A stretch of DNA of 64,000 bases. Source: Trachythela sp. YZ-2020 (Eukaryota; Cnidaria; Anthozoa; Malacalcyonacea; Clavulariidae). Below are positions 31,249 through 58,800 of this stretch, in pieces. Every line of letters begins with the position of its first letter. The first letter of the stretch is position 1. The position numbers and the translations under genes are program-made. The notes under the pieces are model-generated. The model saw only the letters and a list, made by a program, of their open reading frames with translations. It made no database searches and was not told where the DNA came from. Where the stretch lies: the NCBI GenBank assembly GCA_016169945.1, contig JADLSH010000279.1, positions 1,178,001 to 1,242,000 of the forward strand, in the 5' to 3' direction.

Positions 31249-34200
31249 ATGACACGAAGTTTGGTATCTTTGGCCTGTGTTCTGCTGTACGTCACCAGCA
31301 CACTGGCTGGACCACGTAAGTAACATAAAAATGTATTTCATGAAAAAAAGGTTATATTTTACTAACAGACACAATTAACTTGAAACTTGAAGACTGTTCA
31401 GTCCAACTGTCCGAGATATTGTTACCTCTGCTAGGGCCTAGGAGGTTATATTTTCAACTGAGTTTGTGTACGTGTGTTTGTCTTTGAGCACGATAACTCA
31501 ACATTTTAACACGAAAATTTGTGGCGCTATTAAATGGCCATTAGCCGAGGCCAAATCGATTAAATTTTGGTTCAATTTGAATGAAAATTGGATGAGAAAA
31601 TTTCTCTTGCTTTCCCCGGCTGAACATAACTGAATGCGTAATTAGTGTAGGTATAATTTATGCATGAATAGTTGACTCAATTTGTGGCGTAACGAATTTA
31701 GAAACATTTTTGCTTCGTCAGTGCAGTTAGTGCAGTTAGTGTTTCGCAAACATGTTTTTATTAGTTTTTAATCTTTCAGCTTATACGTGTCTGAACATGC
31801 TACCGCCAGTATTTGTTGTAAAATCTTGAGTGCTTGGTTCTAGTGTAAGTTGCGATAAACGATAAGCTGCGAGATTACAGGATCAAACTTCTTGAAAAAT
31901 ATAACAAGAACTTCGACGTTTTGAGCGAAGACCCTTCGTCTATAAATTAGTACCTTCCGGGGACCTTCGCTCGGAACGTCCTAAAACACACAGTATTTGT
32001 GTGTAACCGACCAATTTACACAGAAGAGATTTACTATACAGGCAAATTTTTCCGACAAATACTTCCTGATTTGTCCATGCCCTTTGAGAAACATGGCTAA
32101 AAACAATGGCAATCAGGGTTTCCTAGTTTGCTCCGTCTCTGGGTCTAAACTGATTGTAAACTCCTGTATATCTTGATACGATTAGAAAAAATAGTTGCTT
32201 TCACCACCAATATAATATGGTACGTGGTATGGTGTATGGTATGGTATATGGTATGGTATATGGCATGGTATATGGTTTGATATATGGTATATGGTATTGT
32301 ATATGGTATGGTATATGGTATGGTATATGGTATGGTACAGTATATGGTATGGTATATGGTATGGTACAGTACATGGTATGGTATATGGTATGGTACAGTA
32401 CATGGTATGGTATATGGTATGGTACAGTATATGGTATGGTACGGTACGGTATGGTATGGTATGGTATGGTATGGTATGGTATGGTTTGGTATAGTGATGA
32501 AATTAAAGTTTTAAACTAAAATTGAAATTCTATTTTTAACAGTACAAAAGTGTACAAAAGTGGTGGACATTGCCATGGTGATGGACGAGTCAGGCAGTAT
32601 AGGTCGCACTGACTTCGAAAAGATCAAGAAATTTGTCGGCGATGTAATATCTCGCTTCAGTGTGGCACCATTTGGCGCTCATTTTGCTGCAGTGAAATAC
32701 AGCAGCCTACCTCGTGAAGTGTTTTCTCTCACCAAGTATACTGACGCTGCACAGCTACATACCGCTGTCCAAAATATGAACTACCTTGGCGGAAGTACGT
32801 ATACTGGAAAGGCATTGGAATTGGTTAATGAAAAGGTAATTATTGCTTGCTTATAAAATTGTGCCCATCATCCATACTTTATATGTGTTTAAACTAAAAC
32901 TGAATTAAACTAACTTTATTTTTACTGGATGGGGGGATAGCTCTATCAGTTCTACTCTGTTCTCTCCAAAGGTCAAATAAAGGCCTTCTGTAGCAACACT
33001 GGATTAATATAAGGGGTGGGCGGGTGTCTCTTACTGAACCTCTAGGGAGAACAGTTTAGAACTGATAGTGAGCTATCAGTTAGTTTAGTTTTTTTATATA
33101 TATAAACGTTTCTATCCAGTTTACAAGACTCTCTTTTAAATTCTCATTTCCTATATAGAACTTTATATATTAATAGCCTTTTGAATTCATTTTAAAATTT
33201 TTCTTTTCAATTTCTCATAAGATATTTGGACAAGACGAAGACCGAAAAGACGTGCCCAATGTGTTGGTTTTGTTTTCTGACGGTCAGTCACATGACCACA
33301 GCACAGCAGTACGCGTAGCGCGGGAAATGAAGGCGAAAGGTGACGTCATTCTTTGTGTTGGCATTGGCAACGGGCTAACCGTTGATCGACTGATGGAAAA
33401 GCTCAAAGAAATTGCGAGCAAACCCGAGTATGCTTTCAAGTCGTCTATGAACGCACTGAACACCATTGAGGACTCACTGGTTAAGGATATGTGCGAAGCA
33501 ATTAGTAAGTATACCGAGACTGAGATATGGTCTGGTTATGCCGGGACAGGTGAGAGGCGGGGTGACTTTGCTGAATTATAAACCGTGAGTCGTTACTAGT
33601 TTATTTCAACACAGGAACATTGCACTACTCGCCTGGACATCCATAATAATGTAGTTAAAGCCTGTTCACACGATCCGATTTATCGTACCCGATTCTCCTC
33701 CTGACGCATGTGATTTCACACAATACAGCAACAACTACACTTTTCGCCAGGTATGAGCCAATAGCCTTACTCTTGTCAGCGAATCCAGTAAATCACATAC
33801 GTCAAGAGGAGAATCGGATCCGACCAATCGGAGCGTGTGAACAGGCTTGTAAGCTTTATTAACAACATTCCAGTTCCTTCAATCGCCGTTTGACTTTTCC
33901 GGCTTATACCTAGTGATATATTTCAATACATCAAAATCATCCCGCCTTCCGATCCCGTCACGAGACCTGTGTTACATGGTTAAGGGGTTAAGACATAATT
34001 TGGTTTTAATCTTTTCCTCAAGGTGCATGCGTGAGCCAGCCCTGCAAGAATGGCGGAGAATGTGTGGATGATGGTAATGGTGGATATCAATGTAAATGCT
34101 CACCAAACTGGGAGGGAAAGAATTGTGAATTGCCCAAATGTAAGTTTGATTAAAGTCAAAGCACGATATCGTGGTGTCCGCTAAAGGATATGCAGACATG

Positions 34201-35657
34201 CTATAATCATTATAACAAGTATCCATAACAAATTTCAAGTCGATACAATGATTCCGTTGAGAGTTAAGAAGGTTTGAATAATTCGTATTGCTGACGTCAG
34301 CATTACTTTCAAATGCCGTTAAAAACTGCGTTTTTCCAAACCTAACGCGAAAAGCTTAGGTTAGAATATAGACATGTATAATAAAACATGCCTTTCCTTG
34401 AGCATTTATTTTTTGGCCGCCATGTTGGATGGCAGACTGATGGCATTAAGCTCGTTGATACGATACGATTTCTCGGATCCTGGCCAAAACATTTTAACGT
34501 ACTCATTACGTACCTTATTAAAGAATCAGATTTAAATTTCTATTTATTGAATGCCATCAAAGAGTAAAGTTAGTCGAACTGGCCGTGCCAGATTCGTCCT
34601 GTAAAATAAACAACAAGGATAAAGTTAAATCCAGGCTCGAATCCTTATCTTTTCAGGGTGCCCAGCTGCCTCGTTCTCAAAATGGGGTTGCTATCAAACA
34701 CCTCGACCAAGACCGTCCACAACGAAACTCTTGTTCAACCGTCGTAACGCCATTGATTGGTTTGATGGATGGGATAAATATCTTGAAAAAATTGTTTGCG
34801 AGTAAGTAAAATGTCCTTTTTTATATTTCTCACATTTTCCATCTCAGCTCAGCTCAGCTCAGCTCAGCTCAGCTCAGCTCAGCTCAGCTCAGCTCAGCTC
34901 AGCTCAGCTCAGCTCAGCTCAGCTCAGCTCAGCTCAGCTCAGCTCAGCTCAGCTCAGCTCAGCTCAATTTATCACTCTCACGTGGTAGTTTGAAATGGTC
35001 TGTCCGGGGGAAACCGGAACCATTTGCTCAACCATACACGGTGGCAAGCGCGCCGCCACCTGAGTTTACTCGGCTATACAGCAGGTGGACGTATTTACTC
35101 AGGTTTGGTAACGTCCTGCTGCTTGAACTCAAGTAAGTTGAGATTGTTCTCCGTGCGAGGGTTTCCGTGGGTTACTCCGTACCTGGTTTCCTCCTCCTAA
35201 CGGCAAAACCATAACTCAAACCAACCCTGTCAATTGGGTTGCAAATCCTGTTAAGGCTTTCCGTCCACTTCAGAGTGGTAAACACAATAAACTAAGCTAA
35301 TCAATTATATTTTGATTCAATTTGGATGAAAAGTGGATGAGAAATTTGTGCATGAATCCTCGACTTCATTTGCCGGCGGAGGTATGCAGTTTCCGAATTC
35401 CACATCATCTACAATTTTAATTTTGAATACCATTTCACAGTTGTGGAAAGGCGGCGAAGGATGGAGGCTACAAATACTTCTGTATCGAGTTTTATGGCGA
35501 ATGTTGGGGCTACAAGGAGTTTGGTGTGAACAACCCTCACGCAGGAGCCAAGGCGTGTTGGGGAAAACGTCCTAACTACGACACATGCATTCATAACCAG
35601 AAAAAGCCAATATGCGTTGGGACAGCCGAACATGGATATGTCTACCAACTTAATTAA
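31249..35657 (+). CDS. Tandem paralogue 1: secreted vWA-EGF-cysteine-rich protein (373 aa)
   Basis: Six coding exons: 31249-31315, 32543-32835, 33222-33504, 34023-34139, 34657-34801 and 35441-35657, all GT/AG, with phases 1, 0, 1, 1, 2. Residues 1-20 are a signal peptide ([20 protein letters not shown]). The vWA spans about 27-214, encoded by two exons, with a full MIDAS: DESGS, the threonine in GGSTYTG, and FSDG. A six-cysteine EGF follows (about 215-253, one exon). The C-terminal cysteine-rich module (about 254-373) carries [17 protein letters not shown] and [13 protein letters not shown] 3'UTR exon follows. It is probably an extracellular or secreted adhesion protein; the ligand is unknown. 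It is the most diverged of the three copies (W instead of L before CPAAS; GVNN, TAEHG). Confidence 0.93.
32214..32497. repeat. Pentanucleotide satellite (GGTAT)n in intron 1 of paralogue 1
   Basis: Runs of TATGG with interspersed 'tatat' and 'acagta' variants. It is the complement of the (ATACC)n array at 10965-11237. It ends about 45 bases before the vWA exon and is absent from paralogues 2 and 3. Confidence 0.95.
32890..33095. mobile_element. Palindromic MITE family P in intron 2 of paralogue 1
   Basis: 'actaactttatttttactgg', 'gatagctctatcagttct' and 'tgttctctcc' are mirrored by 'gagaacagtttagaactgatag'. Counterparts sit at the same intron position in the other two paralogues, so the insertion predates the duplications. 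Confidence 0.7.
33659..33848. mobile_element. MITE with AAGCCTGTTCACACG ends
   Basis: AAGCCTGTTCACACGATCCG at the left and CGTGTGAACAGGCTT at the right, with inner inverted 'gattctcctc' and 'gaggagaatc'. It lies in intron 3 of paralogue 1 only. The ends resemble those of the 35785-35988 Harbinger-like MITE. Confidence 0.8.
34843..34966. repeat. Pentanucleotide array (CTCAG)n
   Basis: About 25 perfect CTCAG units, starting 41 bases after the 5' splice site of intron 5 in paralogue 1. The same intron carries a (TTTAG)n array in paralogues 2 and 3. The frame through it is repetitive and not coding. Confidence 0.97.
35030..35290 (+). mobile_element. SINE-like element family B
   Basis: Shares 'cggctatacagcag', 'agttgagattgttct', 'caattgggttgcaaa' and 'gttaaggctttccgtcca' with a minus-strand copy at 62445-62752. 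It lies in intron 5 of paralogue 1. Confidence 0.65.
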
Positions 35658-40008: not shown

Positions 40009-43000
40009 ATGAAACGAAGTTTGGTATCTTTGGCCTGTGTTCTTCTGTACGTCACCAGCACACTGGCAAGTAAGTAATTACATAAAAATGTATTTTATAA
40101 AGGTTATATTTTACTAGTAGACACAATTAACTTGAAGACTGTTTCGTTTAACTGTCCGAAAGCCAGGAGGTTATTATGTTTACACCTGGGTTTGTTTGTG
40201 TGCATGTGTGAGGGGCTTCGATGGCGCAGTCGTCAGAGCAAGCGCCTTTCACCTCTGAGATCGTGGTTTTGATTCTCTCTGAGGACTCATGACACTTATG
40301 TGAAAAGAGTCAGTCAACGCTCTACCGAAAGTCGTGGGTTTTCTCCGGGCACTACGGTTTCCTCCCACAGGGAATGTTGACAGGGTGGGTTTGGATCAGC
40401 CCCAAACTTACCCTTCCATCGTAGCTGTGCTCCCTGATCAGACATGAGTCATACGGTGGCAGCCAGTGGCGCCTTTAATAAGACTTCGACTCGATCAAGT
40501 TGAGCTGCGTCCTTCGTAATTCAGCTCAGCTCTCAGCTGCAAGTGATGATTAGCATACCCCCACTTACTTACTGCACTTACTTACATGTGTGTGTGTGTA
40601 TGTGTTTGTCTGTTTGTTTGACTGAGAGCGCGTTAACTAAAAAATATCAAATATTTCAATACGAAAATTTGTGGAACTAATGCCAAGGACAAATCGATTA
40701 AACTTTAGTTTTGTCTTACTTTCCCAGGCTGAACAGAACTGAATGCATAATTAGGGCATGTATAATTTATGCATGAATACTTGACTTATTCGCTGGTATG
40801 CAGCGGTTAGAATTAATAATGCCTTTGCACACAAAGAGACCAAACATCTTACAACTTGATGTTGACTCGCATGTCTCCTTGTTAGAAACATTTTTGCTTC
40901 GCCATAGCAATGAGGGTTTCGCAAACATGGTTTATTTAGCTTTTAAGCATTCAGCTTATACGTATCTAAACATGCCACAGACAGTGTTTGTTGTACTGAA
41001 CTGACCGATTTACCACAAAAGAAATTTATCCTACAGGCAAATTTTTCTGACAAATGTTTCATGGTTTGTCCACGTCCTTTAAAAAACAAGCTAAAAACCT
41101 ATGTTTCCACAACAATATTACTTGTTTGGCCCTGGGCCTAAAATTTTGGACTCTCGTTTATCTTCATACCATTAGAAATAATAACAGTGATGAAAGTTTT
41201 AGACAAAAATTAACATTCTCTTTTTAACAGTACAAAAGTGTACAAAGGTGGTGGACATTGCCATGGTAGTGGACGAGTCAGGCAGTATAGGTCCCGCTGA
41301 CTTCCAAAAGATCAAGACATTTGTCGGCGATGTAATATCTCGCTTCAGTGTGGCTCCATTTGGCGCTCATTTTGCAGCAGTGAAATACAGCACCGGACCT
41401 CGTACAGTGTTTTCTCTCACCAAGTATACCAACGCTGCACAGCTAGATACCGCTGTCCAAAATATGACCTACCTTGGCGGTGGCACGTATACTGGAAAGG
41501 CATTCGAATGGGTTCAGAGAAATGTAATTAGATCCCATACTTGAGTATTTAATATTTATATTGGATAGCTCTATAAGTTCTGAACTGCTCTCTCCAGAGT
41601 AAAGATTTTCCCTTAACGGCGATGTAACTACAGAAAGAAACATAACCGAGTAATCCGGTTTCCTCCTGTAGTAACACTGTGTCAATAAGATTTGGCCGGA
41701 CTCCCAAGTTTTGGCCCTTACTGTAATTTTAGGTAGAACAGTTTAGAATTGATAGAGCCATTACCCTAACCCGGGTTAGGGTTAGTCAAATCCAACTATA
41801 AGCTGATATTTATAGCCTTTTTGATTCTATCTTTTAAATCTCTTTAATTTCTCATAAGATATTTGGGCAAGCGGAAGACAGAAACGACGTGCCCAATGTG
41901 GTGGTTTTGTTTACTGACGGTGAGTCAAATGACCAAAGCAAAGCCGTACGCGTAGCGCGGGAAATGATAGCGAAAGATGTCGCCATTCTTTGTGTTGCCA
42001 TTGGCAAGGGGCGAATCAAGAAAACACTGGTGGATCAGCTTAAAGCAATTGCCAGCAAACCGGAGTACGTTTTCCAGTCGAACGTGAACGCACTGAATAC
42101 TATCGAGGACTCACTGGTTAAAGATACGTGCGAAGCAATTAGTAAGTATATATACTGTATACCGAGACTGAGTGTAAACAGGTTTCTTCGCTTGTATACG
42201 TTCGTAAAATGCAGTCGCTTTACTGTCTGAAATTTTTAAGCGTCTATTGAAACACAACTATAGCTACAACATTTTAATGCTAGTTTGAGTTTCTTTTAAC
42301 GCTATATATTTGTTTACATTTTCAATATAAAAAGCCGTGCGTGTGCGATTTTCACCCGGTTTGCCGGGATGGAGCGATTACATGGCGATTTTCATCCCGG
42401 CAAACCGGTTTATAGCCCGCTTGCAACAAGCGAGATCTCGCCAGAGCGGGCTAGCCCGGCTTCCATGTAATCGCAATGCAAAATTTAAATAAGATTATTA
42501 TAGTAAGCGGGCTAGCCCGGTATAGCGAGCTAGCCCGGTAAAGAGGGCTAACCCAGTCCACGTAATCGGCCCCTTAGTATGAAAAGTAAAAATTTTAAAG
42601 TCCTAACATTTATTTATTTTTGAGTATTTTATACGACGTTTTGCGAAGTTCAGGATTTGTAAAATCGTAACCAAAAATGCAGGAAATGCCATTTCAGGCG
42701 GACTTAGGGAGCGGTCATTAAGTATGTGTCATGGGGGCCCCGAGGCTCTTTGAGGGGGTTATGAAGCAAAATCTTTCTTCTTTGCAGGAGTTTAAGCCCG
42801 AATTTATAAAAAAAGCAAAGGGGATTAAAACTAAAATTCATATAAGAGTCTATAAGGGGCATGGATGCATCTTTCATAGTACTTCACTCTCTCTTGACTT
42901 GGCAGTTCCTATTTTTATAATATTATTAAAAATAGATTTAATTCTCAAGTGAATACAATTTCAAATTTCTGTGTAAGAATTTTATACCTTTTAGTATAAA

Positions 43001-45613
43001 TACTATAACTACAGCCATGATCATGCAGTATTAACCCATTAGCTTGCAATGCGCCCAGATGCGCCCTACTTTAGTATTTTACTCTGTCTAACGACAGACG
43101 ATTTTACTCGTCAGTGGTAGGGTACTGCCAGTTAGCGAGTTAAATAAACCATTTGAACCAATTCGAAATATATGACAGTTTTCTTTATTATTTAATACTA
43201 AATTTACTAATAATTTTAAAAAATAGGCATAGAAGAAGGTAGAGCGCAGTGTGGAACTATATAATGGTTACACCAGTACAATATCTATCTATTGGGTATT
43301 TACACCCTCTTGATATTAAAAATTCAGGGAGGGCTATGAAATTATTTTTTATATAATTGAGGGGGTGCAAAATAATTTCTCGTATGTATGGGAGGGGCAC
43401 AAACCATTTTTATAAAATTTTATAAAATAGCCTCCGGGTCCCCATGACACATACTTAATGACCGCTCCCTTAATATTTCAAATTTTTCCGGGGGAGCATG
43501 CCCAAGCACCCCCCCCCCCAGATGTTCTCGCACATTCGGTATTCGTTTGTCCACCCAGGGCACTGTAAAACACAAATACAATTGTTCACCCTCCCTTTTT
43601 TCACGCTGTCGACGCCACTGATATTACCTAGTGATTTATTTCAAGTACAGGGTTACGGGGTCAAAAGACATAAATTTTGTTTGAATCTTTTCCTCAAGGT
43701 GCCTGTGTGAGCCAGCCCTGCAAGAATGGAGGACAATGTGTCGATACTGTTGATAATGGTAATGGCGGATATCAATGTAAATGTCCACCAAGCTGGGAGG
43801 GAAAGAATTGTGAATTGCCCAAATGTAAGTTTGATTAAAGTCAAAGCACCATATTGTGCTGTCCGCTAACGGAAAATACAGACATACTATGCATGTTATT
43901 TGGGGGTTTTGTATTAGTGTCCACGCCCGCTTATGGGAGGTGTAATCCGTTTAAGAGAAGTTGTCTAATGTAATATGTAACATAGTTTTGACAGGAGTAG
44001 TTTTAGGTTTCATATTTGTTTTAGGTCGACAAGAAGCCTATAAACCAGGCTATTGAACCCTAATTTTTGTTGGGGTGTTGATGCCTTGACTTCACAGTGG
44101 CTAAATTAGTATGCAGGCATGTGCTATTCACCTCTGCGATTGGGGTCCGACTAAAGTCTTGGTCAAACGAGGAGAGTTGTTGAGAGTTAGCAAGCGAGAG
44201 TTTGCATGAGAGTGTCATTAACTCTCATGCCCCGGTCAAACGAAAACAAGAGTTGCATGAGAGTTGACTGGATATTACCACGCGTACCGGTCAAGCGATG
44301 AAGAACTTTCATCAACTCTCATCAAAACTTGAACGAGCTCAAAGTTGATGAGAGTGCACGAGAATCGACAAGAGTTGGCGGTCAAACGCGAGCGAGAATG
44401 GCAACTCTCACGGACTCTCATCAATTCTTATCCTCCTTTGTTAATGTATTGAGTTGTGTGAACATTTGTCCATATAGTAACCCAACGTAGCCAAAACATT
44501 TTAAAACTCATTACCTCGAAGAATCAGACTTAAATTCCTGTAATATGGAATGCCGTCAAAGAGTAAACTTGTCTTAGTCAAACTGGCCGTGACATATTCG
44601 TCCTGTAAAATAAACAACGAAGGGTGAAAAGTTCGAAAACAATTCTTAAAACCACACAACTACTAATTCCTTATCTTTTCAGTGTGCCCAGCTGCGTCGT
44701 TCTCAAAACGGGGTTGCTACGACACACCTCAACCTAAACCGGCCACATCGAAACTCTTGTTCGACAGTCGTAACAACGTTGATTGGGGTGCTGGATGGAA
44801 TAAATATCTTGAAAAGATCGTTTGCGAGTAAGTAAAATGTCCTTTTGTATTTCTCACATTGTTCCTCAAAGACAATTCCAAGTTTTCATTAAGACTTTAA
44901 GAGTTTAACTTGGGGTTTAGTTTGGGGTTAAATTTTAGTTTAGTTTAGTTTAGTTTGGTTTAGTTTAGTTTGTGTTTACTTTTTGAATTTTTTGAAGAAA
45001 AAAAAGTAGCCTTAGAAAGTCAATTTTGGTTATAAGAAATATAACTAAAGGCTTGAGATTTAAAAATGAAATTTTGAGTTTAAATTGTTTACATTTGAAA
45101 TCGGGTAATCAGTACAAGCATTGCTGCAATTGGCATTATAAAATAGACACCTGTTAAATATGGTCTGGGAGAAAATCACGCAAATTTGACTACCATGCGT
45201 AGAAATTGTAAAAAGATACTAGGATAATTTTCTACTATGGCAACAGGCGCGCAAGAATTTCTGACCCAAGTTTACAGTTATCTCAAGTCACTTTGCAGGT
45301 AACCAGGTTACCGCGGATCTCCACATCTGACGGTCATGGTAGTACCTATCATTTACATTAAATTTTAAATATCATTTTACTTCTTCTTCGTGACAGTTGT
45401 GGAAAGGCGGCGAAGGATGGAGGCTATAAATATTTCTGTATCGAGTTTTATGCCGAATGTTGGGGCTACAAGGAGTTTGATGTGAACAAGCCTCACGCAG
45501 GAGCCAAGGACTGTTGGGGAAAACGTCCTAACTACGACACATGCAATAATAATGAGAAAAATCCAGTCTGCGTTGGGACAGGCGATCATGGATACATCTA
45601 TGAACTTAATTAA
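40009..45613 (+). CDS. Tandem paralogue 2: secreted vWA-EGF-cysteine-rich protein (374 aa)
   Basis: Six coding exons: 40009-40069, 41231-41523, 41859-42141, 43699-43824, 44683-44827 and 45397-45613, with the same borders and phases as paralogue 1. Signal peptide [20 protein letters not shown]. The vWA has DESGS, GGGTYTG and FTDG, a complete MIDAS. The EGF exon is 9 bases longer than in the other copies (an extra TVDN-type insertion between its third and fourth cysteines). The cysteine-rich module holds nine cysteines, including [11 protein letters not shown] and [12 protein letters not shown]. Exon 1 lacks the GP residues found before the first junction in paralogues 1 and 3. Last-exon protein differs from paralogue 3 at 7 of 72 positions and from paralogue 1 at 13. 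The 3'UTR exon is at 46618 onward. Function inferred as extracellular; ligand unknown. Confidence 0.94.
40211..40586 (+). mobile_element. tRNA-derived SINE family A in intron 1 of paralogue 2
   Basis: Full-length: tRNA-like head (ATGGCGCAGTCGTCAGAGC A box, TTTTGATTCTC degenerate B box), body, then 'cttaataagacttcgactcg' and an (ACTT)-type tail. The same insertion is present at 51531-51905 in paralogue 3 and absent from paralogue 1. Confidence 0.85.
41550..41765. mobile_element. Palindromic MITE family P in intron 2 of paralogue 2
   Basis: 'ggatagctctataagttctg' and 'cctcctgtagtaacactg' are followed by 'gtagaacagtttagaattga', the mirrored ends of the family. Orthologous in position to the copies in paralogues 1 and 3. 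Confidence 0.7.
42330..42560. mobile_element. GC-rich inverted repeat element
   Basis: Words such as 'cccggtttgccgggatg' and 'catcccggcaaaccgg' face each other, followed by several 'gcgggctagcccgg' palindromes. Probably a MITE; exact ends not fixed. It lies in intron 3 of paralogue 2 only. Confidence 0.5.
42707..43469. mobile_element. Harbinger-like MITE, 763 bp
   Basis: GGGAGCGGTCATTAAGTATG at the left is inverted at the right end and the match runs about 30 bases. Flanked by TTA on both sides (42704-42706, 43470-43472). The interior has an AT-rich unique part and no intact ORF. It lies in intron 3 of paralogue 2. Confidence 0.8.
44150..44430. repeat. GAGAGTT-rich dispersed repeat
   Basis: Same family as 9225-9490 ('gagagttagcaagcgagag', 'cggtcaaacgcgagcgaga'). 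It lies in intron 4 of paralogue 2. Confidence 0.5.
44930..44972. repeat. Short (GTTTA)n array, paralogue 2 intron 5
   Basis: About eight GTTTA/GTTTG units. The corresponding array in paralogue 3 (55488-55615) is about three times longer. Confidence 0.85.
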
Positions 45614-46563
45614 TCATGTAAGTTTAATAAGCTAGCTCGGAGTTTCTACTGCGCATCCAAATGACGCGTTCTGCGTCGGGATAAAGTTGCAGTTGAATCA
45701 TAACATGTAGCTGAGACTGGAAGAATTAAAATACGCATATCAAATAAGCATTGTTGAGATTTGCCCCCCACCTTATATGCATAATATGCTGAAGTGTATT
45801 TACTCACAAAGGTATTGGATCAATATGTGTGTTTCACTATAAGTAACGGACAATGCAGCACACGGTAATCATGCAGCTCTTAGTAAATCGCTAGTTGTAA
45901 TTCTTTTGATTATAATTTTATGTAGCATTCTTATATTTGGAGTCCAATACATAAAATTAAAATATTTAGTTTTGCTCCAGACCTATATATGTGTCAACAA
46001 ACACTTCTGAATTTGATCACCATTATTTTGCTGTCCTATAACGATTATTGAAACCCACCAAGTCACTGCAGCGACTGCTATTTCCACGACATGCCGCACA
46101 GTGGCATAACTCCTATGAGCTCTGCCCGGTAAGAGCCGGGGGCACCCAGGCGATCGGGCTTCCAGGGGGCATCCTGAACTGAGTTGTCCGGGAGCCAAAC
46201 AAATCGTAAATTTTGTTATGTTAAAATGACGTTTTCTGACCATCAGAAGGGCCAGAAAATTTCCCCCCAAAGGGCCAGGAAATGGAATTTCAGAGACTCT
46301 AGATTTTAAAATTTTCCTCCGGACCCCCCGAGCTTGTGCCTTCGGCATTCGTACTAGAGGGGCCTTTAAAAATTTTGAACTGGGGGCACCCTGATATAAC
46401 GTTACGCCACTGCTGCCGCAGTTCGCATGTGAAAAGATTGGTTTTAGCTGAACCAACGGATGTATTGACCTTCAAGGGAGCAAGCTATTAATGCCAAATG
46501 TTTCCATAACATGTATTTACCATCAAATGCCAGGTCAAGTGCTGATAACTACCTATAATGTAT

Positions 46564-46592
46564 GCACGTATATATATATATATATATATAAC
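46564..46592. repeat. (TA)n run in the 3'UTR intron of paralogue 2
   Basis: Uninterrupted TATATA tract between 'cctataatgtatgcacg' and 'acctgatcacttttcttacc'. In paralogue 3 the same two flanks are separated by about 1.28 kb of hammerhead-bearing sequence, so this is the empty site. Confidence 0.95.
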
Positions 46593-46739
46593 CTGATCAC
46601 TTTTCTTACCTTTTTAGGCGTAAATTTTGCACAAGACTTTTAAGCACTCACTAAAGTAGAGAAATCGTAAAGATGAAATTACACTTAATGATCACATAGA
46701 TGTATGCACGCTTAGGAATAAATACAAATCATGAAAAAA

Positions 46740-47497
46740 TCTCTCGTGTGTATGTTCAAAGTTAATATCTTGGAAAGTTGTTAGAATGGGCCTTTACATA
46801 ACGCTTAGCCATCCAGTCACGATCCAGTGATTGGAATGTTCCATTGTCTTTTTATTGTTTTGAAAATCCCCATGCCATCCAGTCCCAATGGAGTATGGGA
46901 TAGAGAGGATAGGGGCACGCGCTCCCGCCATGTTTTCTTCAAACTGCCCTTTTCTCCAGGTAAAACAATGGGAAAAGTGCCTATTTTTAATAGAAGAGCC
47001 GAGGAGGTGCCCTTAAGATGAAGCGCACCTCCAACTTCAAGTCGCATTCCCCCACGACCCCCGGCCGCCACGCCCCTGACTTCATTTACATATTATTAAA
47101 ACATAGCTTACATTTTTGCTGCTTGAACAACTTTGATTTGTTTACTTGGGTCAGTGACTCAGTGTTCGTGTGAACAGCACCGCAGAAGAGAGAGAAGACA
47201 AGTACAAAGCTGCGACTGTGTGATTGGTATTTTTACTTTTGGTGAGTAGTACATATATTTCAGTCGTATATGGCTTTCCTTCCGGCAATGTGGGATCAAA
47301 TAAAACAACCCAATATTTTTTAAATCTATCCTGCCAATTCCATAGCAATCAATTGGACTTATTTAAAACGCAATAATGATCGAAATTTTGTATGGGTTTC
47401 ACTTAGATTTTTAGAAATTTCACCATTCAGGCACCATTCAGTGTTCAGACTGCGTGCTACCTTCAGTGTTCGAAATAGACTCGAATATTTATTGATT
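46740..47497. repeat. 3' flank of unit 2, homologous to unit 1
   Basis: Matches 36420-36660 and 37190-37700 downstream of paralogue 1. No gene seen. Confidence 0.7.
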
Positions 47498-48678: not shown

Positions 48679-50084
48679 GATCTAGTCTAAAACTACACCC
48701 GAATGACAGACGAGTAACAGACGTGTACAGACGACTACAGACAAGTAACAGACGAGTAACAGACGACTACAGATAAGTACAGACGAGTAACAGATGAGTA
48801 ACAGACGAGTAACAGACGAGTAACAGACGAGTAACAGACGAGTAACAGACGAGTAACAGACGAGTAACAGACGAGTAACAGACGAGTAACAGACGAGTAA
48901 CAGACGAGTAACAGACGAGTAACAGACGAGTAACAGACGAGTAACAGACGAGTAACAGACGAGTAACAGACGCGTAACAGACGACTACAGACGCGTAACA
49001 GACGCGTAACAGACGAGTAACAAACGACTACAGACGAGTAACAGACGACTACAGACGCGTTTCAGACGACTACAGACGCGTAACAGACGACTACAGACGC
49101 GTAACAGACGACTACAGACGAGTAACAGACGACTACAGACGCGTAACAGACGACTACAGACGCGTAACAGACGACTACAGACGACTACAGACGCGTAACA
49201 GACGACTACAGACGACTACAGACGCGTAACAGACGATTACAGACGAGTAACAGACGACTACAGACGCGTAACAGACGACTACAGACGCGTAACAGACGAC
49301 TACAGACGACTACAGACGCGTAACAGACGACTACAGACGACTACAGACGCGTAACAGACGACTACAGACGAGTAACAGACGACTACATACGCATAACAGA
49401 CGACTACAGACGAGTAACAGACGACTACAGACGCGTAACAGACGACTACAGACGCGTAACAGACGAGTAACGAGCGTGGGTGTGACGAGCGTGGGTGTTG
49501 CTTAGTCAATAATAAATCTACAAAAATTAATAATTCTAATTAATTATGTAATTATGCATAATACTTAACTAATAAATATTAATTTGAATATTATTATTTG
49601 CGCGGCGACTGTTCATATTTCCATCGCCGTATGAACTTGTATGTACCTGGATGTCACTCGTATTTAGAAAATTACTCGTCTGTAGTCGTCTGTTACTCGT
49701 CTGTTACTCGTCTGTTACTCGTCTGTAGTCGTCTGTTACTCGTCTGTAGTCGTCTGTTACTCGTCTGTTACTCGTCTGTACTTGTCTGTTACTCGTCTGT
49801 AGTCGTCTGTTACTCGTCTGTAGTCGTCTGTTACTCGTCTGTTACTCATCTGTAGTCGTCTGTTACTCGTCTGTTACTCGTCTGTACTTGTCTGTTAATC
49901 GTCTGTAGTCGTCTGTTACTCATCTGTAGTCGTCTGTTACTCGTCTGTTACTCGTCTGTTACTCATCTGTAGTCGTCTGTTACTCGTCTGTTACTCGTCT
50001 GTTACTCGTCTGTTACTCGTCTGTAGTCGTCTGTTACTCGTCTGTAGTCGTCTGTTACTCGGGTGTAGTTTTAGACTAGATCGA
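48679..50084. mobile_element. Foldback element with arms of 10/11-bp subrepeats
   Basis: Begins CGATCTAGTCTAAAACTACA and ends with its exact complement at about 50064-50083. The left arm (about 48705-49470) is a tandem mix of GACGAGTAACA, GACGCGTAACA (11 bp) and GACGACTACA (10 bp). The right arm (about 49670-50060) is the same array inverted but about half as long. A centre of about 200 bp is AT-rich with no ORF. The layout is that of foldback transposons, whose long inverted arms are made of short tandem repeats. It sits between paralogues 2 and 3. Confidence 0.85.
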
Positions 50085-50134
50085 CCAAAAATTATATCAT
50101 CACAAATTGCATCGTTCTCTAAAAATTGAAGTGA

Positions 50135-51310: not shown

Positions 51311-54300
51311 ATGAAACGAAGTTTGGTATCTTTGGCATGTGTTCTTCTGTACATCGCCAGCACACTGGCTGGGCCAAGTAAGTAACATAAAAATGTATTT
51401 CATGAAGGTTATATTTTACTAATAGACACAATTAACTTGAAGACTGTTTCTTTTAAATGTCCAAAACAGCGTTACCTCCGCCAGGAGGTTATCAGGTTTG
51501 CACCTGCGTTTGTTTGTGTGCATGTGTGATGGGACGATGCGGTGGCATAGTCGTCAGAGCAAGCGCCTTTCACCTCTGAGATCGTGGTTTCGATTCTCGC
51601 TGGGGACTCATGACAATTATGTGAAAAGAGTCCGTCAACGCTCTACCGAAAGTCGTGGGTTTTCTCCGGGCACTACGGTTTCCTCCCACAGGGAATGTTG
51701 ACAGGGTGGGTTTGGATAAGCCCTAAACTAACCCTTCCATCGTAGCTGTGCTGCCTGATCAGACACGAGTCATACGGTGGCAGCCAGAGGCGCCTTTAAT
51801 AAGGTTTCGACTCGATCAAGTCGAGCTGCGTCCTTCGTAATTCAGCTCAGCTCTCAGCTGCATGTGATGATTAGCCCACTCCCACTTACTTACTGCACTT
51901 ACCTACATGTGTGTGTATGTGTGTGTGTTTGTCTGTTTGTTTGTCTGAGAGCGCGTTAACTAAAAAATATCAAACATTTTAATACGAAAATTTGTGGAAC
52001 TAATGCCACGGACAAATCGATTAAACTTTAGGGCTGAACAGAACTGAATGCATAATTAGTACATATATAATTTATGCATGAATACTTGACTTATTCGCTG
52101 GTATGCAGTGGTTAGAATTAATAATGCCTTTGCAAACAAAGAGACTAAACATCTTAGAATTTGATGTTGACTCGCATGTCTCCTGTTAGAAACATTTTTG
52201 CTTCGCCATAGCAATTAGTATTTCGCAAACATGGTTTAATTAGTTTTTAAGCATTCAGCTTATATACGCATCTAAACATGCTACAGTCAGTGTTTGTTGT
52301 AACCAGTGACCGATTTACTACAAAATAAATTTATCCTATGCAGGCAAATTTTTATGACAAATGTTTCATGGTTTGTCCCCGCCCTTTGAGAAACATGTTT
52401 CAACAATATTACTTGTTTGGCCCTGGGCCTAAAATTTTGAAATCTCGTCAGTGATGAAAGTTTTAGACGAAAAATTCAAATTATCTTTTTAACAGTACAA
52501 AAGTGTACAAAAGTGGTGGACATAGCCATGGTAGTGGACGAGTCAGGCAGTATAGGTCCCACTGACTTCCGAAAGATCAAGACATTTGTCGGTGATATAA
52601 TAACTCGCTTCAGTGTTGCTCCATTTGGCGCTCATTTTGCTGCAGTAAAATACAGCACCGGACCTCGTGAAGTTTTTTCTCTCACCAAGTATACTGTCGC
52701 TGCACAGCTAGATGCCGCTGTCAAAAATATGATCTACCTTGGCGGTTGGACGTACACTGGAGACGCATTGGACTTTGTTCAAAAAAACGTAATTAGATCC
52801 CATACTTGGGTATTTAATGCACCAATCAATTCGAAGGTGTAACCGCCCCCTCCCCCGGGCATGGATGGGGCATTAGCCGTTGCTCGTGTCTCCAAGAGAC
52901 GGGCATTTGTTCTTAGTAAAATTCATTACGGTGAGGCATTTCATACCTCTTGTAGTTGGGTAGGGATTTGACCAGTCTCCCTGTCCACCAATGTAAACTA
53001 TTTTGTTGACCTATAAGAAGTTTCTGACTCCATAATTTGCGTTACCAGCATAGCAGCAGACTGTCTACACTCGCTTGAGTTGCTTCCTGCCTTCAAAAAA
53101 CCGCACATTTAAGTGTATGTACAACAAAAATCACGCTCTTTTGACTTTAGAAAATTGTGAAAGAGACAAAAGCATGCCAATTTAAAAGCAAGAACGTGGA
53201 ATTTGGCTTTCAATTTCAAGCTTGACATTAAACTGTCAGTGGGGCATCTGACCTCTAGTTGGACTTGGAACGTTCAAATAACCATGTTTTCTGACAGGGA
53301 GTGGGGAATTTGATCATTGAAAAAACCTGCAAGTCAAATGCCCGGGTATATGCCCATACTCGGAGGGGGGATGTTACACTTTCATTTTGATCCGTGCATA
53401 ATATTTACATTGGATAGCTCTATCAGTTCTGAACTGCTCTCTCTACAGTAAAGATTTTCCCTTAATGACCATGTAACTACAGAAAGAAACATAACCGAGT
53501 AATCCGGTTTCCTCCTGTAGTAACACTGCTGTGTCAATAAGATTTGGCCGGACTCCCAAGGTTTGACCCTTACTGGACTTTCAGGTAGAACAGTTTAGAA
53601 TTGATAGAGCCATTACTCTAACCCGGGTTAGGATTAGTCAAACTCAACTATAAGCTGATATTTATAGCCTTTTTTTATTTTATTCCTTAATTTTTCTTTT
53701 TAATTTCTCATAAGATATTTGGGCAAGCGGAAGACAGAAAAGACGTGCCCAATGTGTTGGTTTTGTTTACTGACGGTGCGGCAAATGACCAAAGCAAAGC
53801 AGCACGCGTAGCGCGGGAAATGCAAGCGAAAGGTGTCGCCATTCTTTGTGTTGCCATTGGCAAGGGACTAACCGTTCAACAACTGGTGGAACAGCTTAAA
53901 GATATTGCCAGCAAACCCGAGTACGTTTTCAAGTCGAACGTGAACGCACTGAATACTATCGAGAACTCATTGGTTAAAGATATGTGCGAAGCAATTAGTA
54001 AGTATACTGAGACTGAGATATGGTCCGATTATGCCAGATTAACGGGTGAGAGGCCGGAGCAGTCCCCCCCCCCTACCTTCCGTCCCTGTACATCAAAATC
54101 ATCCCGCCTTCCGATCCCGTCACGAGACCTGTGTACAGGGTTACGGGGTAAAAATACATCAATTTCGTTTTAATATTTTCCTCAAGGTGCATGCGTGAGT
54201 CAGCCCTGCAAGAATGGCGGAGAATGTGTGGATGATGGCAATGGCGGATATCAATGTAAATGTCCACCAAGCTGGGAGGGAAAGAATTGTGAATTGCCCA

Positions 54301-55617: not shown

Positions 55618-56428
55618 TGTTTATTTTTTAATTTTTTGTAAAAAATAGGCCTCAGAGAAAGTCAATTTTGTTTATGAGAAACATCACTCAAGACCTGAAA
55701 TTTAAAAAAAATGAAATTTTGAGTTGAATTGTTTACATTGTTTACAATATAGTCTGGGAGAAAATCACGCAAATTTGACTACCATGTGTAGAAATTGTAA
55801 AAATATACTATTGGATAATTTTCTACTTTCTGACCCAAGTTTACAGTTAACTCAAGTGACCTTGCAGGTAACCAGGTTACCGTGGATCTCAACGTCTGAC
55901 GTCTACTAACCCCAAATATGATTTTTGGTATGTGCAAAATTTGGGTCATTCTAATGAGAAATGTAATGTATCTTTGTAGTAAAAATCTGTAGTCATTAGG
56001 TGAATAGTAAATTAGTTTTCCTTTGTTTTTTTTATGCTAAAATCCATCTAATGACATCATATCCGGCAACTTTGACAGTGAAAAAGTTGACGAAGATGAG
56101 GTTTTTTACTATAAAGATATATTACATTTCTTCTTATAGAATGACCCAAATATTGCATATACCAAAAATCATATTTTGGGTTAATCGCACTTTAATTGTT
56201 CTTCGTGACAGTTGTGGAAAGGCGGCGAAGGATGGAGGCTACAAATACTTCTGTATCGAGTATTATGGCGAATGTTGGGGCTACAAGGATTTTGATGTGA
56301 ACAAGCCTCACGCAGGAGCCAAGGACTGTTGGGGAAAACGTCCTAACTACGAGACATGCAATCACAATGAGAAAAATCCAATCTGCGTTGGGACAGGCAA
56401 TCATGGATACATCTACGAACTTAATTAA
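51311..56428 (+). CDS. Tandem paralogue 3: secreted vWA-EGF-cysteine-rich protein (373 aa)
   Basis: Six coding exons: 51311-51377, 52496-52788, 53715-53997, 54187-54303, 55079-55223 and 56212-56428, same borders and phases as the other two. Signal peptide [20 protein letters not shown]. vWA with DESGS, GGWTYTG and FTDG. A six-cysteine EGF, then the cysteine-rich module ([23 protein letters not shown]). The total is 1122 coding bases including the stop. Introns carry several insertions missing from paralogue 2: about 575 bp in intron 2, a 175-bp MITE eight bases after the donor of intron 5, and a MITE ending 28 bases before exon 6. All splice sites remain intact, so the gene looks functional. 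The 3'UTR intron holds the hammerhead cluster. Confidence 0.94.
51531..51905 (+). mobile_element. tRNA-derived SINE family A in intron 1 of paralogue 3
   Basis: Head GGGACGATGCGGTGGCATAG with A box, B box GTTTCGATTCTC, body, 3' half and an (ACTT)-type tail. Flanked by 'catgtgtg' on both sides, a plausible target duplication. Shared with paralogue 2. Confidence 0.85.
52820..53397. mobile_element. MITE-like insertion in intron 2 of paralogue 3
   Basis: The ends GCACCAATCA..GGTGTAAC and GTTACACTTTC..TGATCCGTGC are imperfect inverted repeats. Inner inverted words are 'cccgggcatggatg' and 'tatacccgggca'. Paralogue 2 lacks it: its intron reads 'gtatttaatatttatattgg' across the site. Confidence 0.7.
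53395..53615. mobile_element. Palindromic MITE family P in intron 2 of paralogue 3
   Basis: Almost the same as the 41550-41765 copy ('ggatagctctatcagttctg', 'gtagaacagtttagaattga'). Confidence 0.7.
55232..55406. mobile_element. Harbinger-like MITE, 175 bp, next to a 5' splice site
   Basis: Ends AGCCTAGTTTTCATATGTCG and CGACATATGAAAACCAGGCT; inner inverted 'ccgatggtcggcga' and 'tcgccgaccatcgg'. Flanked by TAA at 55229-55231 and 55407-55409. Paralogue 2 reads GCGAGTAAGTAAAATGTCC through the site, with one TAA, giving an exact empty site. Confidence 0.93.
55485..55615. repeat. Pentanucleotide array (GTTTA)n in intron 5 of paralogue 3
   Basis: Two blocks of TTTAG units separated by a degenerate stretch near 55545-55570. 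The expanded counterpart of 44930-44972. Confidence 0.95.
55907..56183. mobile_element. MITE ending just before exon 6 of paralogue 3
   Basis: TAACCCCAAATATGATTTTT at the left is inverted as AAAAATCATATTTTGGGTTA at the right, and 'ttgggtcattcta' words are mirrored. Absent from paralogue 2. It ends 28 bases before the acceptor of exon 6. Confidence 0.85.
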
Positions 56429-57291
56429 TCATGTAAGTTTAATAAGCTAGCTCGGAGTTTCTACTGCGCATCCAAATGACGCGTTCTGCGTCGAGATAAA
56501 ATTACAGTTGAATCATAACATGTAGCTGAGACTGGAAGAATTAAAATACGCATATCAAATCATAGCATTGTCGAGATTTGCCCCCCACCTTATATATATG
56601 CAATGCTGAAGTGTATTTACTTACAAAGGTATTGGATCAATATGTGTGTTTCACTATAAGTAACGGACAATGCAGCACACGGTAATCATGCAGCTCTTAG
56701 TATAAAATCGGTAGTTGTCATATATATAAGTGATAAAATAGTAGTAATTCTTTTGATTATTTATGTAGCATTCTTATATTTGGAGGCCAATAAATAAAAT
56801 TAAAATATTTAGTTTTGCCCCAGACCTATATATGTGTCAACACTTCTGAATTTGATCACCATTATTTTGCTGTCCTATAACGATTATTGAAACCCACCAA
56901 GTCACGGCAGCGACTGCTGTTTCCACTTCGACATGCCGCAGTTCGCATGTGAAAAGATTGGTTTTAGCTGAACCAACGGGTGGTCAACTTCAAATGTATT
57001 GACCTTCAAAGGGAGCGAGCAATTAATGTTTCCATAACTGCATAACATGTATTTACCATCAAATGCTAGGTCAAGTGCTGATAACTACCTATAATGTATG
57101 TACGTATATATATATATATATGAAAAGATTGGTGCCAAAGCTCACTTCCCTTGTGGTCGTTTGAGCACTCCGGCCCCAAGACACTTCACGCATGTCTGGA
57201 TGCGCATGTGTCTGAGTATTGTACCACATGCGCTTGGTGAGGACAAGAGTATGGTGTATATAATGGGCTTACAGTCACCGCATCTAGACCG

Positions 57292-57335
57292 TTGCACTGA
57301 CGAGCCGTTGAACGGCGAAACATGCATGTCTGCAG
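57292..57335 (+). ncRNA. Type I hammerhead ribozyme, family A (plus copy)
   Basis: Stem I 57292-57296 (TTGCA) pairs with 57331-57335 (TGCAG) with one G-U wobble. Core CTGACGA 57297-57303. Stem II GCCGTTGAACGGC 57304-57316 closes with G-C and five pairs. GAAA 57317-57320. Stem III CATGCATG 57321-57328 is self-complementary. Cleavage triplet GTC ends at 57330. All invariant positions of the hammerhead core are present. Confidence 0.92.
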
Positions 57336-57339
57336 ATTT

Positions 57340-57343
<4 letters not shown>

Positions 57344-57402
<59 letters not shown>
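57344..57402. repeat. (TA)n microsatellite
   Basis: About 29 TA units directly after the 57292 hammerhead element (TGCAGATTTGAC then TA). The open frames running into it on both strands are artefacts. Confidence 0.97.
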
Positions 57403-57405
<3 letters not shown>

Positions 57406-57500
57406 TATAGACGATATAGTAAAAACCGTTTGCAGAGTGCTCAATGGAGAACCAGAGCATAATATAGTTAAAATTCAGAGATTCAACAGTTTTGAATAGA

Positions 57501-57561
57501 CATTTTATTACTAGTTAGTTTCGTGCTACACACGTATGTGTGGTACTCTTCAGACAAAATG
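57501..57561 (-). ncRNA. Type I hammerhead ribozyme, family B (minus copy)
   Basis: On the minus strand: stem I CATTTTGT pairs with ATAAAATG (eight pairs, one G-U). Core CTGAAGA. A long stem II starts GTACCACAC and ends GTGTAGCAC, with two internal mismatches. Then GAAA, stem III CTAACTAG (three pairs, two-base loop), and cleavage after GTA. It lies head to head with the 57578 copy. Confidence 0.88.
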
Positions 57562-57577
57562 ATCTAAGATATTAGAT

Positions 57578-57647
57578 CATTTTGTCTGAAGAGTACCACA
57601 CTGTCCACACATACGTGTGTAGCACGAAACTAACTAGTAATAAAATG
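57578..57647 (+). ncRNA. Type I hammerhead ribozyme, family B (plus copy)
   Basis: Stem I 57578-57585 with 57640-57647; core CTGAAGA 57586-57592; stem II region 57593-57625, 9 bases longer than in the inverted copy because of a local CCACAC-type duplication; GAAA 57626-57629; stem III CTAACTAG 57630-57637; cleavage triplet GTA ending at 57639. The core is intact. Confidence 0.88.
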
Positions 57648-57712
57648 TCTATTCAAAACTGTTGAATCTCTGAATTTTAACTATATATATATATATATAT
57701 ATAGAGTCAAAT

Positions 57713-57756
57713 CTGCAGACATGCATGTTTCGCCGTTCAACGGCTCGTCAGTGCAG
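57713..57756 (-). ncRNA. Type I hammerhead ribozyme, family A (minus copy)
   Basis: On the minus strand: stem I CTGCA/TGCAG (five Watson-Crick pairs), core CTGACGA, stem II GCCGTTGAACGGC, GAAA, stem III CATGCATG, cleavage after GTC at plus-strand position 57718. It belongs to the right outer arm, the inverted copy of the 57292 ribozyme. Confidence 0.93.
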
Positions 57757-58060
57757 CTTGTAACGCAGTCTAGATGCGAGTGACTTCGTATTTATACATG
57801 CACCATACTCTTGCCCTCACCAAGCGCATGTGGTACAATACTCAGACACATGCGCATCCAGACATGCGTGAAGTGTCTTGGGGCCAGAGTGCTCAAACGA
57901 CCACAAAATAGGGAAGTGAGCTTTTGCATTCTAGCTTAATTGTTTGCTTTGTTGCGTATAATACGAAAAGTGCTCAATACATTGGAGCAGAGCAAATTTA
58001 AAATATTTAATAAATCAAAATTATACAATCATTAGTTGTATAAATGTTTTCAAAATCCTG

Positions 58061-58111
58061 TGTTAACCTGATGATTGCCTTGACCAGGCATGAAACTTTA
58101 AGTAGTTAACA
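58061..58111 (+). ncRNA. Type I hammerhead ribozyme, family C
   Basis: Stem I TGTTAAC 58061-58067 pairs exactly with GTTAACA 58105-58111. Core CTGATGA 58068-58074. Stem II TTGCC..GGCAT 58075-58091 has four pairs above a U-U mismatch at its base. GAAA 58092-58095. Stem III CTTTAAG 58096-58102 has three pairs and a one-base loop. Cleavage triplet GTA ends at 58104. The U-U closing mismatch is unusual and may lower activity. Confidence 0.85.
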
Positions 58112-58209
58112 AATGTTTGTATAATTTTGATTTATTAAATATTTATATATATATATATATAGTCAAATCTGCAGACATATATATTTATTATAATCTTAAA
58201 ACAGTTTTT

Positions 58210-58253
58210 GTTGCTACTTTAAGTTTCATGCAGTTATGCAATCATCAGGCAAC
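58210..58253 (-). ncRNA. Type I hammerhead ribozyme, family D
   Basis: On the minus strand: stem I GTTGC/GCAAC, core CTGATGA, stem II TTGCATAACTGCAT, GAAA, stem III CTTAAAG, cleavage after GTA. Compared with the 58061 ribozyme, stems I, II and III differ in sequence but keep pairing. A partial plus-strand copy at 58286-58334 keeps the GAAA, stem III and 3' side of stem I but has lost CTGATGA. Confidence 0.87.
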
Positions 58254-58559
58254 TGTTCTTAAAACCAAAGTTGTTCTTTCAACTGCATGAAACTTAAAGT
58301 AGCAACAAAAACTGTTTTAAGATTATAATAAATATTGCTCTACAAATGATTTTGTGTTGAGCACTCTTATCTACTACAATCACAACACAGATATTGTATA
58401 TATATATATATATATAACCTGATCACTTTTCTTACCTTTTTAGGCGTAAATTTTGCACAAGACTTTTAAGCACTCACTAAAGTAGAGAAATCGTAAAGAT
58501 GAAATTACACTTAATGATCACATAGATGTATGCACGCTTAGAAATAAATACAAATCATG

Positions 58560-58800
58560 AAAAAAATCTCTCGTGTGTTTGTTCAAAGTTTTAATCTTTT
58601 TCTCAAGGTAAAAATATAAGGTGGATAACATAATATTTATAGTGGATATTTTTCGGACAGACTCCCACTGTAGCTGTACACCACTGTAGCTATACATCGC
58701 CATAACTGGACTCTCGTGTACACTCAACGGTTTTCTTTTCTAGTGACCAAAAATGATATCATCACAAATTTCATCGTTCTTTAAAAATTGAAGTGATGTA
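58560..58800. repeat. 3' flank of unit 3
   Basis: Matches 48600-48680 and 50088-50137 downstream of paralogue 2 ('ggacagactcccactgtagct', 'gaccaaaaat.atatcatcac'). In unit 2 these two blocks are separated by the foldback element, in unit 3 they are contiguous. Confidence 0.8.

Follow-up and report, generated by a model that had tools for sequence, protein, structure and literature searches.

Genomic Context and Hammerhead Motifs

The DNA stretch analyzed in this study (64,000 nucleotides, referred to as the window) is part of contig JADLSH010000279.1 of the anthozoan Trachythela sp. YZ-2020 and contains, downstream of a host gene frame belonging to a tandem family, an insertion featuring six type I hammerhead ribozyme (HHR) motifs. 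The open frame located 5' of the insert ends with a stop codon at 56426-56428 and features VWA domains upstream, as do two similar tandem gene copies in the window. The paralogous copy ending at 45613 is followed by the same downstream DNA, the insert being absent: the left flank of the insert (56923-57121) aligns to 46407-46585 and the right flank (58397-58598) to 46571-46771. Since the paralogue flanks meet in an uninterrupted (TA)11 tract (46569-46590), representing the empty target site, positions 57122-58396 (1275 bp) were interpreted as an insertion in (TA)n. A candidate intron donor (GTAAGT at 56433) is located just 3' of the stop codon, and a candidate acceptor (TTTTTAG, ending at 58443) is followed by AATAAA at 58543. 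Because resembling donor and acceptor letters are present in both upstream paralogues, it is plausible that the insert sits in an intron of the host gene's 3' untranslated region, and this location, already proposed in the initial annotation, is regarded as likely. No protein family was detected in the three stop-to-stop frames of at least 75 amino acids overlapping the insert, in agreement with the earlier statement that it harbors no protein-coding element.

Sequence reading and a structural scan of the window (pattern: CTGANGA, stem II, GAAA, closed stem III, GTH, and stem I, with pairing required) revealed six HHR cores, three on each strand, representing four sequence families (HH1 to HH4) and all located within 57121-58397, with (TA)n separators (Table 1). 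Number, strands, families, and separators had been described correctly in the initial annotation. Outside this interval, the scan of the window yielded no further hammerhead site. As background, 60 resamples of the window (first-order Markov, both strands scanned) contained no site, and 2000 resamples of the insert contained one; a stricter earlier scan recovered four of the six motifs, with one chance match in 40 one-strand resamples. All six motifs possess the type I core features, namely CUGANGA, GAAA, GUH, and three helices, open at stem I, and are predicted to undergo self-cleavage. Across 11 hammerhead families, pair types differ and pairing is mostly kept, as the scan itself demands.

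The comparison with Rfam weighs against the hammerhead reading. No match was obtained in the window at the gathering score, and at a relaxed threshold the sole hammerhead match was RF00008 at 57279-57326 (20.2 bits, cut-off 48.5; E 0.56). Rfam hammerhead matches were also absent from nine loci with 57 scanner-positive hammerheads, many of them in tandem arrays, so that Rfam appears to be insensitive for hammerheads here; this check, originally recommended, was therefore discarded as an arbiter. MicroRNA matches at the relaxed threshold were below curated cut-offs, on long inverted repeats or TA runs, and were rejected. A covariance model (R1), built on six hammerheads from other loci, placed four of the six motifs on ranks 1-4 in the window (E 2e-13, 3e-10, 0.015, and 0.018) and missed the HH3 pair (E 1.7 and 3.1). 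This support is only partly independent, because the model includes two hammerheads (from L055 and L056) closely related to HH2 and HH4. Folding energy was uninformative, the isolated motifs being unremarkable (z -1.5 to +0.9) and HH1(+) favoring a different fold in the calculation.

Table 1. Components of the insertion and its borders (positions within the window; pLTR, pseudo-long terminal repeat).
Feature	Position	Strand	Basis
Left remnant of target (TA)n	57105..57121		alignment to (TA)11 of paralogue 46569-46590
5' junction filler, 94% identical to host 56947-56962	57118..57133	+	direct repeat D5
HH1 retrozyme copy, 5'-truncated, monomer positions 79-282 plus TGCAGATTTGAC	57133..57342	+	blastn to 282-bp monomer
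HH1 hairpin module 2	57140..57169	+	motif search
Hammerhead 1 (HH1), predicted cleavage after 57330	57292..57335	+	scan, model R1
(TA)30 between HH1(+) and HH3(-) tails	57343..57402		sequence reading
HH3 pLTR arm with tail, 3' end at site 2 (GTC/TATATA)	57403..57561	-	3' end comparison
HH3 hairpin module 1	57435..57458	-	motif search
Hammerhead 2 (HH3), predicted cleavage at 57509	57501..57561	-	scan; missed by R1
HH3 pLTR arm without tail, 3' end at site 1 (AAC/TATATA)	57578..57681	+	3' end comparison, sequence reading
Hammerhead 3 (HH3), predicted cleavage after 57639	57578..57647	+	scan; missed by R1
(TA)11 between HH3(+) and HH1(-) tails	57682..57703		sequence reading
HH1 retrozyme copy, 5'-truncated, monomer positions 69-282; 5' end fused to HH2 arm	57704..57938	-	blastn
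Hammerhead 4 (HH1), predicted cleavage at 57718	57713..57756	-	scan, model R1
HH2 arm with tail, end near own cleavage site; outer boundaries by eye	57941..58040	-	sequence reading
HH2 hairpin module	57993 down to 57969	-	motif search
HH2 arm without tail, end at site 1 in (TA)9 (58144-58161)	58061..58143	+	3' end comparison
Hammerhead 5 (HH2), predicted cleavage after 58104	58061..58111	+	scan, model R1
HH1 3'-end fragment joined to HH4 (chimera, read as template jump)	58162..58178	-	sequence reading
HH4 arm, end at or near site 1	58181..58253	-	pair unclassified owing to HH1 fusion
Hammerhead 6 (HH4), predicted cleavage at 58215	58210..58253	-	scan, model R1
HH4 arm with tail, only 3' half of hammerhead	58281..58396	+	half motif E 0.062 in R1
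HH4 hairpin module	58337-58365	+	motif search
Right remnant of target (TA)n	58397..58416		alignment to paralogue

Assignment of the Hammerhead Families to Mobile Elements

For HH1, 51 scored matches were obtained in the 578-Mb genome, some of them comprising only the TA tract. Arrays of five to eight units of approximately 280 bp were found in 7 of 20 fetched 10-kb regions (L022-L028), with full units sharing 93-100% identity with the 282-bp reference unit, the ends of which coincide with predicted cleavage sites. No frame is known in HH1, the frame search having covered the window copies. With tandem units in the range of approximately 170-400 bp, a type I hammerhead, and no frame, HH1 fits the published description of a metazoan non-LTR retrozyme, as far as given in the available part of that source (PMC7229834), where a unit size of ~170-400 nt is reported. 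The G+C content of the HH1 unit (47.5%) compares with published values of <50% in the text and <45% in a figure legend of the same source. Differences from the elements described there concern the window copies, which are 5'-truncated and inverted, and a twin hairpin motif in the HH1 unit, which also occurs upstream of the frames of Penelope-like elements (PLEs) and is not mentioned in the available text. Each array in L022-L028 has a unit with a different stem I neighborhood (TTACG or GTTAG before TTGCA) at a varying place, which is partly due to query bias. An origin of whole arrays from single circles is not favored, as units vary within arrays. In L023, two tRNA-like Rfam matches (3468-3525, minus strand, and 3711-3791, plus strand) are located near the retrozyme array.

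HH3, represented by 85 scored matches in the genome (both palindrome arms counted), is the pLTR of a PLE, as deduced from its genomic arrangement. In L043, a PLE body with a broken frame is bracketed by two HH3 hammerheads, and L048, part of a row of PLE copies located ~2.57 kb apart, features the order frame end, hammerhead, hairpin 1, hairpin 2, and next frame start; hence, tandem hammerhead-bearing pLTRs surround the frame in both loci. For the PLE protein, 681 homologues were recorded, and 133 matches were found in the genome (from 131 scored of 5558 candidates). The expected combination of reverse transcriptase and GIY-YIG endonuclease was detected by homology in genome copies outside the window insert. 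A first Foldseek comparison returned nothing under E 0.001, and a second one revealed a GIY-YIG nuclease fold in the C-terminal part of a homologue; the reverse transcriptase was recognized solely by its motif and by weak palm matches. For the PLE frames, Pfam yielded nothing under E 0.001 and only unrelated weak rows at a relaxed threshold, and for six homologues it yielded nothing; a PDB sequence search returned one unrelated weak row.

Two loci with PLEs from other families (L049 and L054; identities of 57 and 53%) have both hairpins upstream of the frame; L049 also features a hammerhead, and none was seen in the 701 bases read of L054. No hairpin twin was seen in the upstream parts of two further PLEs (L052 and L053). 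Relatives of the PLE were not confirmed in viral contigs, nor were any found in prokaryote assemblies with a single-protein query, and an alignment query yielded two. The first (L058), on a contig in a Solemya symbiont assembly that presumably represents animal host DNA, has a hammerhead, two hairpins, and a frame; the second (L059), from a metagenome bin and presumably also animal DNA, showed neither hammerhead nor hairpin.

HH2 and HH4 together account for 96 scored matches in the genome, with a layout as in HH3. HH2 palindromes are located 3' of PLE frames in L060 and L061 as nested insertions, and L055 and L056 carry HH2/HH4-related hammerheads beside PLE pieces. At least four half-hammerhead HH2 palindromes elsewhere (L060 281-423, L062, L063, and L065) have their center inside the hammerhead. 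HH2, HH4, and HH5, a further family of the fetched loci, share a U-U mismatch at the base of stem II with HHR_Amex2 of the axolotl, which belongs to a different family with a stem III reported to comprise two pairs; this likeness is by description only (PMC7229834, available part). In L042 (1290-2240), the 3' end of a PLE body is joined to an HH5 tail (AAGCGAAAATCTATATA), which was read as a template-jump chimera.

The Twin Hairpin Motif

The motif GCTC-N-GAGCACT is present in all four window families, at four places all inside the insert, compared to two occurrences in total in 20 resampled windows. Genome-wide, the pattern GCTCN8-20GAGCACTCT yielded 4156 + 4061 matches (8217), versus 22 + 33 for the reversed pattern. 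Among 63 distinct loops, derived from fetched loci and the genome-wide pattern matches listed, 14 differ by more than five edits. Bases beside GCTC and bases two letters before GAGC are paired at 71% of the positions tested (other registers: 27-41%); on four positions each, pairing amounts to 70%, compared to a shuffle mean of 55%, a value reached in 3 of 2000 shuffles. Three or four inner-helix pairs are found in 9 of the 14 loops, and none or one in two. The group as a whole thus supports a bulged hairpin, for which the case is weak in the retrozyme, because the two retrozyme loops form two of four inner pairs; the PLE hairpin-2 loop forms two of three. In the non-redundant loci, 55 twin copies were counted, comprising 47 in retrozyme units, 7 upstream of PLE frames, and 1 other, with a spacing of 63-76 bp (mostly 69-70) in retrozyme units and 59-66 bp upstream of PLE frames.

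3' Ends and Head-to-Head Pairs

The fetched loci, selected via HH1, HH3, or PLE matches, contained 139 non-redundant hammerheads (HH1 80, HH3 25, HH5 21, HH2 3, HH6 3, HH4 2, and other 5). HH1 and HH3 copies either stop at the TATA directly before hairpin 1 (site 1) or read on through hairpin 1. One fixed later end was shared by 5 of 13 run-on copies in HH3, where it is the TATA before hairpin 2 (L043 and L048), and by 6 of 8 in HH5. A general rule that copies end at hammerhead cleavage sites was dropped, as only the left HH2 arm fits by eye. Among neighboring hammerheads less than 450 bp apart, 62 were direct; inverted neighbors of the same family were mostly head-to-head (7, versus 2 tail-to-tail), and those of different families mostly tail-to-tail (12, versus 1 head-to-head). 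These orientations fit 3' ends abutting (TA)n.

Body anchors revealed 23 head-to-head pairs, some of them in duplicate loci (e.g., L033 and L035), and both arms could be classified in 17 of the pairs. All 15 PLE-type pairs (8 HH5, 4 HH3, and 3 HH2), including the HH3 and HH2 pairs of the window, combine one arm ending at site 1 with one arm carrying a tail, which in 12 cases reaches (TA)n 64-77 bp further on and in 3 does not do so within 170 bp. Both arms end at site 1 in the two HH1 pairs. The remaining six pairs were unclassified, among them the HH4 pair of the window because its short arm is fused to an HH1 end. The prediction of one tail per pair, set beforehand, agreed with 4/4 further HH2 palindromes (four of ten planned), and in three of these (L062, L064, and L065) the 5' stops of the arms are unequal. 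HH3 accordingly shows the inverted head-to-head pLTRs with a tail on one arm that are known from PLEs. The initial annotation had regarded the inverted layout as unlike that of known Penelope and retrozyme hammerheads. This view was abandoned, since head-to-head pLTRs, one of which may carry a tail, have already been described for PLEs (PMC3846280, available part), and in the same genome HH3 flanks PLE frames and HH1 is a tandem retrozyme.

Proposed Origin of the Insertion and Alternatives

It is very probable that the insert represents a stack of insertions in (TA)n generated by Penelope-like machinery, with retrozymes being moved through the shared motif. Six motifs would occur within 1.3 kb because several PLEs and small gene-less relatives landed, often mirror-paired, in one TA tract. 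The 1275-bp insert, initially described as one insertion, is regarded as a set of nested insertions in one (TA)n tract and no single unit. In the proposed course, a PLE protein with reverse transcriptase and GIY-YIG endonuclease, supplied by a frame at another place in the genome, would bind template RNA at GCUC...GAGCACU and cut AT-rich DNA in a pre-existing (TA)n of the likely host intron. Copying would be primed by the (TA)n end of the DNA and start within the RNA at the UAUA just 5' of the hairpin. Since priming could take place on both DNA strands, two copies would extend toward one another, and their 5' ends, which carry the hammerheads, would be linked to yield a head-to-head pair; one arm would start before hairpin 1 and the other at the second site further on. 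HH1 retrozymes, having the same twin motif without a frame, would be copied in trans. The 16-nt filler at the 5' junction, whose host look-alike is located 171 bp away, probably originated from templated repair or a template switch, and together with the fusions of HH1 to HH2 and to HH4 and with the chimera of HH5 and a PLE in L042, it suggests end joining and template jumps.

A self-priming origin of the palindromes, in which a nucleic acid strand would serve as its own template after folding back close to the hammerhead, has been proposed in print for PLEs of Adineta vaga (PMC3846280, available part). It would account for the palindromic head-to-head junctions, and the centers of several HH2 pairs are indeed located in hammerhead stem II. 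A fold-back copy should, however, repeat the same 3' end, whereas the arm starts differ in the 15 pairs and in the four later ones, and the 5' arm stops are unequal in L062, L064, and L065. Self-priming is therefore considered unlikely, and two primed copies joined at their 5' ends are favored.

The GCTC...GAGCACT modules could also be promoter or RNA-stability elements, their sharing reflecting transcription instead of copying, which we rate as improbable to the same degree. Indeed, they adjoin TATA-like runs upstream of frames, and a putative TATA box and initiator have been reported for a PLE pLTR (available part of PMC3846280), but the 3' ends of the insertions map to the TATA before the module, and the inner helix, paired above shuffles, fits RNA recognition better. 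Long, nearly perfect inverted arms are difficult to assemble, so that a repeat misassembly might be suspected; since many contigs and families show this layout, with junctions that vary, and a rotifer is reported to have PLE palindromes (PMC3846280, in the part available), such an artefact is very unlikely. Slightly less credible still is the idea that the six hammerheads form a single device selected to act on the transcript of the host intron. Complete cores on both strands and plausible intron signals would speak for it; against it, tens of matches to each family are arranged differently elsewhere, the paralogue lacks the insert, and filler and chimeras look like by-products.

Returning to the Penelope-like machinery, a more specific proposal is tentative and rated somewhat below an even chance: the twin RNA hairpin may tie PLEs of this clade to retrozymes. 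A pair of PLE proteins would bind both hairpins, each hairpin representing one start that primes one strand of the cut (TA)n, and retrozymes would be frame-less PLEs reduced to a hammerhead and twin hairpins. If this holds true, the one-tail head-to-head pair would be the standard product. Two points slightly lowered a confidence already short of even, namely the weak inner helices of the retrozyme and the reading of hairpin 2 for HH3 and PLE loci only.

Neighboring Features of the Window

VWA-domain exons of the tandem gene family are located at 3874-4620 (minus strand) and at 32515-33581, 41203-42230, and 52441-54170 (plus strand). Each of the three plus-strand copies precedes a C-terminal exon that contains cysteines and is similar among the copies (35427-35657, 45362-45613, and 56192-56428), and the one such exon checked had no Pfam match. 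Further features comprise a reverse transcriptase frame of 357 amino acids at 26377-27450 (plus strand; RVT_1, E 7e-16), LINE-like by eye, two exons of a xanthine/uracil permease-family transporter (PF00860) at 13028-14373 (minus strand), and a long minisatellite at 48680-50130, open in several frames on both strands.

Comparison with Published Systems and Significance

For the Anolis PLE, experiments with the purified protein showed cutting and extension of both strands and starts inside the RNA, the tail being the stretch between its two start sites; the start site is equal on both strands, and hammerhead cleavage is dispensable for insertion (PMC11167929). Poseidon PAc (PMC11167929) and the Adineta vaga Penelope (PMC3846280) share with the elements of this study a GIY-YIG frame, tandem and head-to-head pLTRs, the tail on one arm, internal starts (two in PAc), and an AT-rich target; PAc also has a hammerhead. 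In contrast to PAc, where the hammerhead lies across the frame start, it is located upstream of the frame here, and stem III with 3-4 pairs is fuller than in the minimal PLE hammerheads (PMC7761336, available part). Two further differences from both systems concern the start site, which is matched by the (TA)n target and directly precedes, on its 5' side, a conserved hairpin motif. A hairpin common to PLEs and retrozymes was absent from titles and abstract openings among the matches listed in literature searches. The shared twin hairpin motif and the rule of one start per arm, neither found in print among these matches, are apparently new.

Taken together, the finding is real and mostly represents known biology in a dense example. 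PLEs have been named likely movers of animal retrozymes because both feature type I hammerheads, tandem occurrence, and co-existence (PMC7229834 and PMC7761336, available parts). To the question of which machinery moves animal retrozymes, a motif at matching place, spacing, and insertion ends adds sequence evidence, and a simple explanation is offered for the head-to-head palindromes and for the optional tail, both puzzling traits of PLEs. The motif, the pattern of which is matched 8217 times in a single genome, provides a handle for helper-parasite pairs in other animals.
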